IMG/VR virus record: IMGVR_UViG_3300031989_000029
Coordinates: 1 to 25,413 of that record
Strand: one strand, 5' to 3'
Source: a virus
DNA length: 25,413 bases
Shown: piece after piece, positions 5,621-9,395 of the stretch
Layout of the letters: each line of letters starts with the position of its first letter
How positions within the stretch are numbered: the stretch's first letter is position 1
The notes under the pieces: model-generated
The model's input: only the letters and a program-made list of their open reading frames with translations
Database searches by the model: none
Told to the model about the DNA's origin: nothing
Program-made: the position numbers and the translations under genes

Positions 5621-6008
5621 GTTCGCGACAGCCCTTGCGCTTCACCTGACCGCTGAGTTGGCCCCCCTGAAGCCTTTGGAGCGGTCTGCGGTGTATGCTC
5701 GCGGGGGGCCTGTCAACGGTCAGGTGACCTACGCGATCTCTTACGGAACGACCGGAGTTGTCAAAAGCAGGGTGATCTCCGTGACGGTGGATGTCGACAT
5801 CTGGCATCAAGGTCCCGACTCTTCGCAGGCCGAGGATCTTGCGAGTCTTGTCGAACAATCCCTGATCGGCTGGTCCGTTAAGACTGTTCGGCAGGGGTCG
5901 GTTCGAATTAGCGGGTTTTCCAGGGCCTATATCAACGATCTGGAACCCAAGTTGTCTCACATCACAATGCGCTTCGATGGGCGCGCTTTCAGGAGGCTGG
6001 AACAGTGA
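5610..6008 (+). CDS. Tail completion / tail terminator-like protein
   Basis: The 132-residue product starts at GTG (5610) with AAGGGG upstream and overlaps both neighbours. It has an N-terminal helix (ATALALHLTAELAPLKPL) and then beta strands including VISVTVDVDIWHQGPDSSQAEDLASLVEQSLIGW, the alternating sheet-helix pattern of tail terminators (lambda gpU/HK97 gp10-neighbour, DUF3168-like). Such proteins cap the tail tube and join it to the head. It lies directly before the tail tube gene, as expected. No catalytic features are seen. Assignment rests on pattern and order. Confidence 0.6.
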   Translation: METEFATALALHLTAELAPLKPLERSAVYARGGPVNGQVTYAISYGTTGVVKSRVISVTVDVDIWHQGPDSSQAEDLASLVEQSLIGWSVKTVRQGSVRISGFSRAYINDLEPKLSHITMRFDGRAFRRLEQ

Positions 6009-6823
6009 GCGGAATCACGAACAGGACGTGGGAAAGTATGATCGTGGACGCAGGCGTCGTCTATGTCAACTTCGGTGAACCCGACGAAGCGATTCTCGGT
6101 GCGACGAACGGTGGTGTCACCTTCGGGTGGGAAGCCATGAACATCCGGACCCCTGAAATCGATGGCTTGAAGGGCCGACTCAAGGGTGCCAGCCGGATCA
6201 CCGAAGCGAGCCCTCAGATGGTCGTCAACCTTGTGGAGTGGCACGAGGAAGCGATCCTTGCGGCTTTTCCTGGAGTCGCGGTGCAGACGATCAGTGGCCG
6301 GAGGCACATCACCCGCACCACGAGGGTTATCGCCCCCACAGATTACCCGGTCAACATCGCGATGGTCGGGAAGCTGTCGTCTGGTGAAGACGTGATCGTC
6401 ATTCTGAAGAACCCGATGGTGGTCAGCGGGGCCGAGATCCCGACGGCCGACGACACCGAGGCGACCACGTCGCTGACGTTTGTCGGGCACTATGACCCGG
6501 ACGACATCGAGGAAGAGCCGTGGGAGATTATCATTCCGGGCAACACCACGGTCACGCTCCAGCGGCTGCGGATCCCGGCTTCTGCGACCATTGCCAGTGG
6601 CGCAGCTTCGACGACCGTTGTGGCCGCGATCTCCGGCATCACGTCCGGTTCCACGGTCTCTTCGTTGGATGGTCGGTTCGAAGTGTTTTCGGGCAACTTG
6701 CGCCGGACGGCTTCGGGGTCGCTGTCGGCGGGCGTCGTCAACGTCGTTTTGGTTGAAGTGTTGGCCGGAGCCACGAACACTCCGAAAGCGTCGCAGGTCT
6801 CTGTGACGGTCACAGCCCCGTAA
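6005..6823 (+). CDS. Major tail tube protein
   Basis: This 272-residue protein forms the tail tube by stacking in rings. It begins with GTG at 6005 in a GTGA overlap, with AGGAGG (5991-5996) upstream, the strongest ribosome site in the area. Residues 1-170 contain a tube-like domain that includes LVEWHEEAILAAFPG and ends in TSLTFVGHYDPDD; the strong phrase of Thr-rich strands before a GHYDP tail is typical of phage tube proteins. Residues 185-272 form a Ser/Thr/Val-rich segment (TASATIASGAAS... and VNVVLVEVLAGATNTPKASQ) resembling a surface Ig-like add-on seen on many tail tubes. It is followed by the tail assembly chaperones. Confidence 0.75.
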   Translation: MSGITNRTWESMIVDAGVVYVNFGEPDEAILGATNGGVTFGWEAMNIRTPEIDGLKGRLKGASRITEASPQMVVNLVEWHEEAILAAFPGVAVQTISGRRHITRTTRVIAPTDYPVNIAMVGKLSSGEDVIVILKNPMVVSGAEIPTADDTEATTSLTFVGHYDPDDIEEEPWEIIIPGNTTVTLQRLRIPASATIASGAASTTVVAAISGITSGSTVSSLDGRFEVFSGNLRRTASGSLSAGVVNVVLVEVLAGATNTPKASQVSVTVTAP

Positions 6824-6838
6824 CGATCAGGAGCCGCT

Positions 6839-7186
6839 ATGATCAGGACCCGTAAACTAACCGGAAAGGACGTCCGCTTCTTGGCGCGCGTCCTTTCCAA
6901 GAGCATCGGCACGTCGCTGGAGAAGCTCAGAGACTCGCCGCCAACTGTCGACAAGACGCAAATCGGCATCCATTTGTTCGCAGCGGTTCTCGCCGACAAC
7001 GTCGATGTCATCTGGGAGTGGCTCGCGTCTGTCGCCCTCATGTCACCGGAAGAGCTGGATGAGGCGCCTCCGGTGACGCCGATCCATATCATCAAGTCCT
7101 TGGAGGGGGATGAAGGGGTCATGGATTTTTTCGCCTCTGTCTCGGAGCTTCTTCCGGCGAAGCCCGAAAAACTGCCCGGTCTTTGA
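6839..7186 (+). CDS. Tail assembly chaperone, lambda gpG analogue
   Basis: The 115-residue acidic, helical protein follows the tail tube gene and precedes the tape measure gene, the place of the chaperone pair that coats the tape measure protein during tail assembly. AGGAG lies six bases before the ATG. The segment IGIHLFAAVLADNVDVIWEWLASVALMSPEEL is typical of small chaperones. Near its end, at 7126-7132, is the slippery heptamer T TTT TTC in the correct phase. A -1 slip there would join 98 residues of this protein to 124 residues in the next frame, giving a 222-residue long form like lambda gpGT. Family membership is inferred from order and the frameshift signal. Confidence 0.7.
   Translation: MIRTRKLTGKDVRFLARVLSKSIGTSLEKLRDSPPTVDKTQIGIHLFAAVLADNVDVIWEWLASVALMSPEELDEAPPVTPIHIIKSLEGDEGVMDFFASVSELLPAKPEKLPGL
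7126..7132 (+). other. Predicted -1 programmed frameshift site T_TTT_TTC
   Basis: The heptamer matches the X_XXY_YYZ rule: in the reading frame of the upstream chaperone the codons are TTT (7127-7129) and TTC (7130-7132), preceded by T. After a -1 slip both tRNAs pair with TTT. The target frame is open from 7114 to the end of the downstream chaperone at 7506. A modest five-base-pair hairpin (GCTTC 7147-7151 with GAAGC 7159-7163) lies 14 bases downstream and could stimulate slipping. Confidence 0.7.
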
Positions 7187-7506
7187 CGAAGATCTGGGAC
7201 CGGGTGGCATTCAGATACGGAGTGCCGCCGACACTCGTTGACGACATGACCCCTGCCCAAATCATCACTGCGCTGGAGGGGCATGAAGAGGATGAACGCC
7301 ACCAATTCATCCTCGCAGCGTTCCCGGTCTGGCTGGAGTCGGGCAAGAAAGGCGAGTCCTTCCCGACTTTCGTTTCCAAGCTAGGGCTCGGCGATAAGAA
7401 GAATCCCCCCCACAGCCGAGGGGGGCGCATGACGAAGGCTCAGCTGAATGAGCTTTACGGCAAGGCGGCTGCGATCAAGCGGACGTATCTGGAGACCCGC
7501 AAATGA
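7183..7506 (+). CDS. Tail assembly chaperone, downstream (T-like) part
   Basis: This frame of 107 codons lies in the -1 phase relative to the upstream chaperone. A TTG at 7183 overlapping the previous stop (TTGA) could start it, but no good ribosome site is seen, and expression by -1 frameshifting at 7126-7132 is more likely. Its sequence (ATPAQIITAL-like segment DDMTPAQIITALEGHEED, then GRMTKAQLNELYGKAAAIKRTYLETRK) is charged and helical, like the T part of gpGT that contacts the tape measure protein. It overlaps the tape measure start as ATGA. Independent synthesis from TTG cannot be excluded. Confidence 0.65.
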   Translation: MTKIWDRVAFRYGVPPTLVDDMTPAQIITALEGHEEDERHQFILAAFPVWLESGKKGESFPTFVSKLGLGDKKNPPHSRGGRMTKAQLNELYGKAAAIKRTYLETRK

Positions 7507-9395
7507 GCATGAGACTCTTCACCGCTTTCGGGGAAGTGGCGTTCCGTGGAATGGACACGGTAGCTCGCGGACTTCGCCAATTCGAAGCGGTGGGGAGGCA
7601 GGTCCAAGAAAGTCTAGATCGAATCGGATCGTCAGCTGAATATGCGGGCAGGACGTTGTCGGGCAGCATCACAGCCCCGATCCTCGCAGCGGCTACGGCG
7701 GCCAGTGCTCTGTCGCTCCGGACGATTGGCCTTGTTCGTGATCTGAGGAACACGGCTCGGGCGCTGAACCTCACTGCGTCTGAGCTTCAGCGGCTCAGGC
7801 TCGGCCTTCGGGGGGTTTTGGACGAGGCTCAGGTGGATGGCTTGTTCGGAAACCTGAACAGGGGTATCAACGAATTCGTAGCGACCGGCGCTGGTCAGTT
7901 CGCGGATTTCTTTGAAAATATCGGTCGTCGGTATGGTATCACTGCCGAGCGGATGGCGAGAGCCACCCCGACGGAGCAGCTTGAGACCATGTTTCGTGCT
8001 GTTATGCGAAGCAGCCGTTCATTTGAACACTTCAGAGCTCAGCTCCAGGCTCTCGGCCCTGAATATGCTGCGATGGCTCAGGAATACTGGGACCACGGAA
8101 ACGAGATGTTTGACCGAGTTGAGGCTCGGGCTGCGGAGCATCCGGCTGCGGTCTCGGAAAATTTGATCCAGCTTTCGGAGGAGTGGGATCGTCGGTGGGG
8201 CCAAATGGCGGGCGTCGCAACCGGCTGGTCAAACCGGATCTCTGAAACCACGATCCCGGTGATGATCACTCTTTTGGATTTGTTTGAACAGCGAGGTATC
8301 CCTGTCATTGAAAAACTGATCGGCTACGTCGAGCAGATGTCCGAATGGTTCTTGTCTATGGACTCCGAGACGCAGGCGTGGACGATCTCCGTCGTTGGGC
8401 TGGTCGCCGTGGTCGGACCGCTGCTCGTGATTCTTGGTGGCCTCATAAGCGTCATCGGAATCGCAGTTGGAGCTCTTGTGAAGATTGGCAGCGGCTTCCT
8501 GAGGCTCGGGGGGGTATTCGTCGCAGCGGCCGGATACCTCAGGCCTCTTGTCGTGGCGATTGCCTCTGGGATGGGAACCATCGCCGGTCTGGTTGCGCGG
8601 GCAGTTCTGACGGTGACATCGTTGGTCCTGTCTGTCGGTTCGGTGTTCGCCAGAGCGATTCCATTCGTGGTGTCGTTCATCGCCAGATTCACACCCATCG
8701 GAGCGGCTTTCGCGGCTGGATACGCGGCTGGCCTCCTCCTCGTGGAAGCCGTGAGGAGGTTGATTGACATCGGCCTCCAAGTTGGGCCGGCGATCATTGG
8801 GGCTGGGCAATCGGTTCTGTCTTTTTTCTCCAAAATGGCGTCAGAGATCGGGTCGTTGGTCAGTGGATGGGCATCCTCTGCCATGGTGGGTGCGACTCAG
8901 ATGGCCCGGTCCATCTGGAACGCGGTCAGTGGTCTTCCGTCTCAGTTCCTGGCTCTTGGGGCGAGAGTCGGGCAGGCGATGATTGACGGGCTCTCGATTC
9001 TACCTTCTGTGGTAATGGGTATTATCAGCCACATGGCAGAAAGCGTCACGGCCCGAGTTCGGCAACTGGCATCCGACATCGGATCGACCCTCCAGCGCCT
9101 CTATGATCGTGTTGTCGGCAACTCTATCATCCCAGACATGGCGTCCGAGGTGGTGGACGAGATTGGGTCCATGGCCGATGGCTCCATTCGAGAAACGCGC
9201 CGGATGAGATCCGGCATGATCCAACAGATGCCTGAAAGACCCGACTTCAGACCCCCCGCGTCCAGTGCCAGTGGGGGGCAACCGGCTGGGGGCTCTGTGG
9301 TCTTCGATCTTCGGCACGCGATTTTTCGAGACGACAGAGACATGGTCAATCGCGCAAGGCTTTCGGGCGCGCTCCCGACAGGGGTGTTCGGATGA
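7503..9395 (+). CDS. Tape measure protein
   Basis: The 630-residue protein sets tail length and helps DNA pass into the cell. It shows the usual features: an N-terminal helical part starting FRGMDTVARGLRQFEAVGRQVQESLDRIG, long helices with few breaks, a hydrophobic centre with several membrane-like segments between about residues 285 and 425 (for example VVGLVAVVGPLLVILGG and FIARFTPIGAAFAAGYAAG), and a Pro/Gly-rich C-terminus. It follows the chaperones and precedes the hub gene. At the usual 1.5 angstrom per residue, 630 residues would suggest a tail near 95 nm (inference). It is the longest late gene in the window. No lytic peptidase motif was recognised. Confidence 0.85.
   Translation: MSMRLFTAFGEVAFRGMDTVARGLRQFEAVGRQVQESLDRIGSSAEYAGRTLSGSITAPILAAATAASALSLRTIGLVRDLRNTARALNLTASELQRLRLGLRGVLDEAQVDGLFGNLNRGINEFVATGAGQFADFFENIGRRYGITAERMARATPTEQLETMFRAVMRSSRSFEHFRAQLQALGPEYAAMAQEYWDHGNEMFDRVEARAAEHPAAVSENLIQLSEEWDRRWGQMAGVATGWSNRISETTIPVMITLLDLFEQRGIPVIEKLIGYVEQMSEWFLSMDSETQAWTISVVGLVAVVGPLLVILGGLISVIGIAVGALVKIGSGFLRLGGVFVAAAGYLRPLVVAIASGMGTIAGLVARAVLTVTSLVLSVGSVFARAIPFVVSFIARFTPIGAAFAAGYAAGLLLVEAVRRLIDIGLQVGPAIIGAGQSVLSFFSKMASEIGSLVSGWASSAMVGATQMARSIWNAVSGLPSQFLALGARVGQAMIDGLSILPSVVMGIISHMAESVTARVRQLASDIGSTLQRLYDRVVGNSIIPDMASEVVDEIGSMADGSIRETRRMRSGMIQQMPERPDFRPPASSASGGQPAGGSVVFDLRHAIFRDDRDMVNRARLSGALPTGVFG

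Follow-up and report, generated by a model that had tools for sequence, protein, structure and literature searches.

ORF1 (positions 6839-7186) of the analysed window, a stretch of 25,413 bases that is an entire IMG/VR record of an uncultivated phage, most probably encodes a G-like tail assembly chaperone, and a ribosomal -1 slip at 7126-7132 would make a minority product, a G-T fusion of 222 amino acids; on the sequence evidence this reading is given a probability of about 0.92. Most ribosomes would terminate at 7184-7186 and release the 115 aa G-like protein. The minority would shift by -1 on U_UUU_UUC (7126-7132) with UUU in the P site and UUC in the A site, the slipped tRNAs re-pairing on UUU UUU, and would continue to 7506 to complete the fusion. 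If lambda is taken as the model, many G and few G-T proteins would coat the tape measure protein, the T part would recruit the tail tube protein, and both G and G-T would depart before the tail is completed. That the slipping machine is the ribosome and not the RNA polymerase, the ratio of the two products and the chaperone function are inferred.

Layout of the overlap in the window

The window has a GC content of 59%, and all its features given here are on the plus strand. The major tail (tube) protein gene (6005-6823; phrog_885, E=4.5e-43) is located upstream of ORF1 and the tape measure protein gene (7503-9395; phrog_2854, E=3e-20) downstream, which agrees with the position between tube and tape measure genes proposed in the first-pass annotation; annotated relatives have the identical gene order around the pair. 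ORF1 is preceded by a Shine-Dalgarno sequence, AGGAG (6829-6833), five bases ahead of its ATG, and near its 3' end it reads GGG GTC ATG GAT TTT TTC GCC. The heptamer T_TTT_TTC (7126-7132) spans the codons GAT TTT TTC in the phase needed for a tandem slip, as had been claimed, and is the sole in-phase X_XXY_YYZ site of the overlap between ORF1 and the -1 frame.

The -1 frame is open from 7114, again in accordance with the earlier claim, and extends to 7506 with its stop at 7504-7506. The putative T-like domain, recognised by the open frame and by the homologous -1 ORF of relatives, consists of 124 codons after the slip followed by the stop (7132-7506). The 98 residues up to the second Phe and the 124 codons from 7132 to 7503 add up to 222 aa, the fusion length given in the first-pass annotation. 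The predicted junction peptide of the fusion is SLEGDEGVMDFFR, while the 0-frame product continues there as ...MDFFASVSELLPAKPEK. The fusion frame ends in the sequence ATGA, in which its stop codon and the ATG of the tape measure gene overlap. A second in-phase T_TTT_TTC is found within the tape measure gene itself, at 8822-8828, where the -1 frame is open for 54 codons; it is probably due to chance.

T6C as such is common enough: the window has 3 copies against an expectation of 2.3. When the codons of ORF1 were replaced by synonymous ones drawn from the codon usage of the window, an in-phase T_TTT_TTN fell within the open overlap in 3.6% of the trials, and any in-phase X_XXY_YYZ in 17%. With the residues D-F-F given, a T in the wobble position followed by TTT is expected by chance in 8 to 10%. 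Judged from the window sequence alone the heptamer is thus suggestive, and it is convincing because it is conserved in relatives.

Conservation of the probable slip site

Relatives were collected from phage records, IMG/VR and genome loci, first with the major tail protein and afterwards with ORF1 as the query. Single-protein scans of IMG/VR gave only one near-identical contig; the closest contig, IMGVR_UViG_3300032103_000069, is identical to the window in this region and uninformative on conservation. The diverged relatives were reached via small alignments of diverged pairs. One of the search patterns was a conserved C-terminal protein motif, which acts at the protein level and does not fix the codons. 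The resulting ORF1 profile finds ORF1 in 136 loci, which form 66 clusters at 80% identity.

A -1 ORF overlaps the 3' end of ORF1 in all 66 clusters. It extends at least 80 codons past the ORF1 stop in 64 of the 65 complete clusters, compared with 32% of control ORFs from the same loci; the length of the -1 ORF alone is not specific, as the downstream gene often uses that frame in any case. According to the first-pass annotation, relatives with intact tails that had lost the heptamer would speak against the slip, and this was checked: T_TTT_TTN is present in phase in 62 of the 66 clusters and 130 of the 136 loci, with no mixed clusters. By sequence comparison, dozens of phages that are only distantly related share the conserved slip site.

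It would in principle be conceivable that the overlap is accidental, or that it stems from a sequencing error or a mutation in a once continuous gene, with the heptamer present by chance. The 3.6% of resampling trials is in line with this, as is the in-phase T_TTT_TTC at 8822. The explanation is given next to no probability and is refuted because the arrangement is conserved, being found in 66 of 66 clusters, which come from various phages and assemblies, and a separate contig (L002) carries the identical sequence.

The conservation is of the bases. The codon ahead of the site has T as its last base throughout, although it encodes different residues (D in 41 clusters, N in 7, S in 5, G in 3 and A, T and V in 2 each), and the last base of the heptamer is C in 37, T in 13, A in 9 and G in 3, so that Phe or Leu follows as the second residue. 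Of 425 comparable F-(F/L) pairs elsewhere in these loci, only 62 are written as U_UUU_UUN. Synonymous differences at the three codons of the site were found in 0 of 462 within-cluster comparisons against a background of 35%; these are non-independent pairs of heptamer-bearing members only, mostly from a few large clusters. The codons +4 to +6 are likewise frozen, as expected for a stretch that is read in two frames. Because the six Ts are fixed while the encoded residues change, the pattern indicates selection on the bases of the slip site and not on the protein alone.

Slippage of the RNA polymerase on T6, adding one U or dropping two in a minority of the mRNAs, would also join the two frames, and a homopolymer run is the feature that the sites have in common. 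The runs are mostly of exactly six bases and nearly always in the phase of the tandem slip (50 of 64 runs have length 6 and phase 2), a phase that transcriptional slippage has no need to conserve. The T runs on which it occurs are longer than 8 according to the literature summarised in PMC3711429. Slippage of this kind is therefore considered improbable, even if it would tolerate the T6 run of SpaA1 (L008), which is in another phase.

SpaA1 is one of four lineages that lack T_TTT_TTN and have kept the -1 ORF, the others being Lactococcus phage 1358, L120 and L138 (sites at L008:4503-4536, L007:5633-5669, L120:1601-1625 and L138:4740-4770). Their sites contain GTT_TTC, CTT_TTC or CTT_TTT: GTT_TTC in Lactococcus phage 1358, CTT_TTT_TCC in SpaA1, CTT_TTC in L120 and CTT_TTT in L138. 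All four retain the shorter slip sequence U_UUY, which could permit slipping by one tRNA alone, the one in the P site. It is tentatively proposed, with less than even confidence, that the Phe tRNA in the P site does so in these lineages and that the family thus alternates naturally between two mechanisms of slipping at a homologous site. With its last-base variants and these four departures, the set of 66 lineages is a broad natural alignment of one -1 slip site and provides material for measuring the needs of a minimal U-run slip site.

Start codons and RNA signals around the probable slip site

In the window the only -1-frame start ahead of the conserved core is a TTG at 7183-7185, which overlaps the ORF1 stop (7184-7186) as TTGA, has no Shine-Dalgarno sequence and lies partly in a predicted stem. 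A GTG at 7204 is also in the -1 frame, and starting there would truncate the conserved core.

Termination at TTGA followed by reinitiation at TTG 7183, with ORF2 translated separately and no fusion formed, would make use of a start placed right where the conserved core begins. This TTG is devoid of a Shine-Dalgarno sequence and situated within a predicted stem, and in relatives an interval beginning 27 bases ahead of the ORF1 stop and ending 24 bases past it was scanned for ATG, GTG and TTG in the ORF2 frame. No such start codon was found there in 56 of the 66 clusters, the window's being one of the ten that have one, and a Shine-Dalgarno sequence at starts in this interval was found in 0 of 66. 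Reinitiation also leaves the conserved heptamer unexplained, and it is regarded as very improbable. In annotated relatives the start of ORF2 has been placed about 35 residues late, inside conserved sequence.

The stem belongs to a predicted hairpin at 7172-7207 that covers the TTG and the ORF1 stop (-33.2 kcal/mol for a 75-nt segment, z=-3.7). It starts 40 nt past the heptamer, beyond the canonical distance of a stimulator, and a comparable stability is absent from the six relatives folded. Possibly it could block the TTG. A weak hairpin is predicted at 7142-7167, in stimulator position about 9 nt past the heptamer (-12.3 kcal/mol, z=-0.05), and is no better than shuffled sequence. A conserved downstream RNA stimulator was not found by folding of the window and six relatives; the lambda-type event is not known to require a strong stimulatory structure.

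A Shine-Dalgarno-like sequence is located 7-18 nt ahead of the slip in 20 of 62 relatives, against a background of 9%. AGGAGG or GAGG is found about 10 nt ahead of the heptamer (for example L010:4462-4487 and L011:4442-4467), a distance also known from the dnaX stimulator. The excess may simply come from the codons of acidic residues (GAG GAA). The window is without a Shine-Dalgarno-like sequence at that spacing, its GGAGG being 19 nt upstream of the slip.

Known chaperone pairs and protein families

The finding of a probable frameshifted chaperone pair in the window is correct and of an ordinary kind. Its position, product layout and predicted helical structures fit a tail assembly chaperone pair. 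Lambda gpG/gpGT would be a functional analogue by position and expression, and to this extent the lambda-type likeness noted in the first-pass annotation stands; a sequence relation between ORF1 and gpG was not detectable (hhalign probability 0.1% in profile comparison). The slip heptamer of lambda is GGGAAAG and differs from T_TTT_TTC. In TP901-1 the heptamer is also GGGAAAG, mutants without G or T give capsids lacking tails, and a forced fusion gives non-infectious particles (PMC4493119). In two HK97-like chaperone genes the slip was measured at 6 to 7% (PMC3711429), and -1 slipping in the tail chaperone gene pair is widely conserved among long-tailed phages (PMC5009743).

A close description is that of SPP1 gp17.5/gp17.5*, with a UUUUUUC slip site, a -1 shift and tail chaperones beside the tape measure gene (gp18), as in the window; the likeness refers to the published description, the SPP1 event being itself a prediction (PMC6316719). 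By site, direction and position the window pair can be classed as SPP1-like. The analysis adds a survey of one slip site across 66 lineages, and it points to a probable misnaming of the T half in PHROGs.

ORF1 by itself matches phrog_1021 (E=9.6e-5), and ORF1 of all 23 aligned members matches as well; this family, the G half, has no function name in PHROGs. The Pfam Phage_TAC families gave no match to ORF1 of the window at the curated cut-off, and two relatives match Phage_TAC_7 weakly (best E=0.0019), not above that cut-off. AlphaFold models, built from the window and from loci of the collection, are all-helical for ORF1 (pLDDT 83) and helical for the T-like domain (pLDDT 86.8). A fold search of PDB gave no match for either half. 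Because of this, and of the undetected relation to lambda gpG, the chaperone function of the pair is assigned by analogy. The fold search of BFVD gave weak matches only. These include the phage 1358 homologue and a protein of a Bacillus phage named 'Tail assembly chaperone', as well as, for the ORF1 model, 'Pre-tape measure frameshift protein G' from Xylella phage Sano. A PDB sequence match to calbindin covered about 37 residues and was taken as a chance helix match.

The T half, the core of ORF2, corresponds to phrog_1294, which is labelled 'peptide methionine sulfoxide reductase' by PHROGs and by records that took the label over; ORF2 of the window gave no match reaching the PHROG profiles of its relatives. 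The name is probably wrong, because no Pfam model of a methionine sulfoxide reductase matches any of 23 T domains. Examples of a misnamed T half with a late start are L006:5059-5331 and L027:3522-3746. The profile phrog_33128 (246 columns) covers both halves of the SpaA1 pair as one protein, so databases already contain a fused form. Annotators could accordingly join two genes that are usually recorded as a hypothetical protein and a misnamed, late-started 'peptide methionine sulfoxide reductase'.
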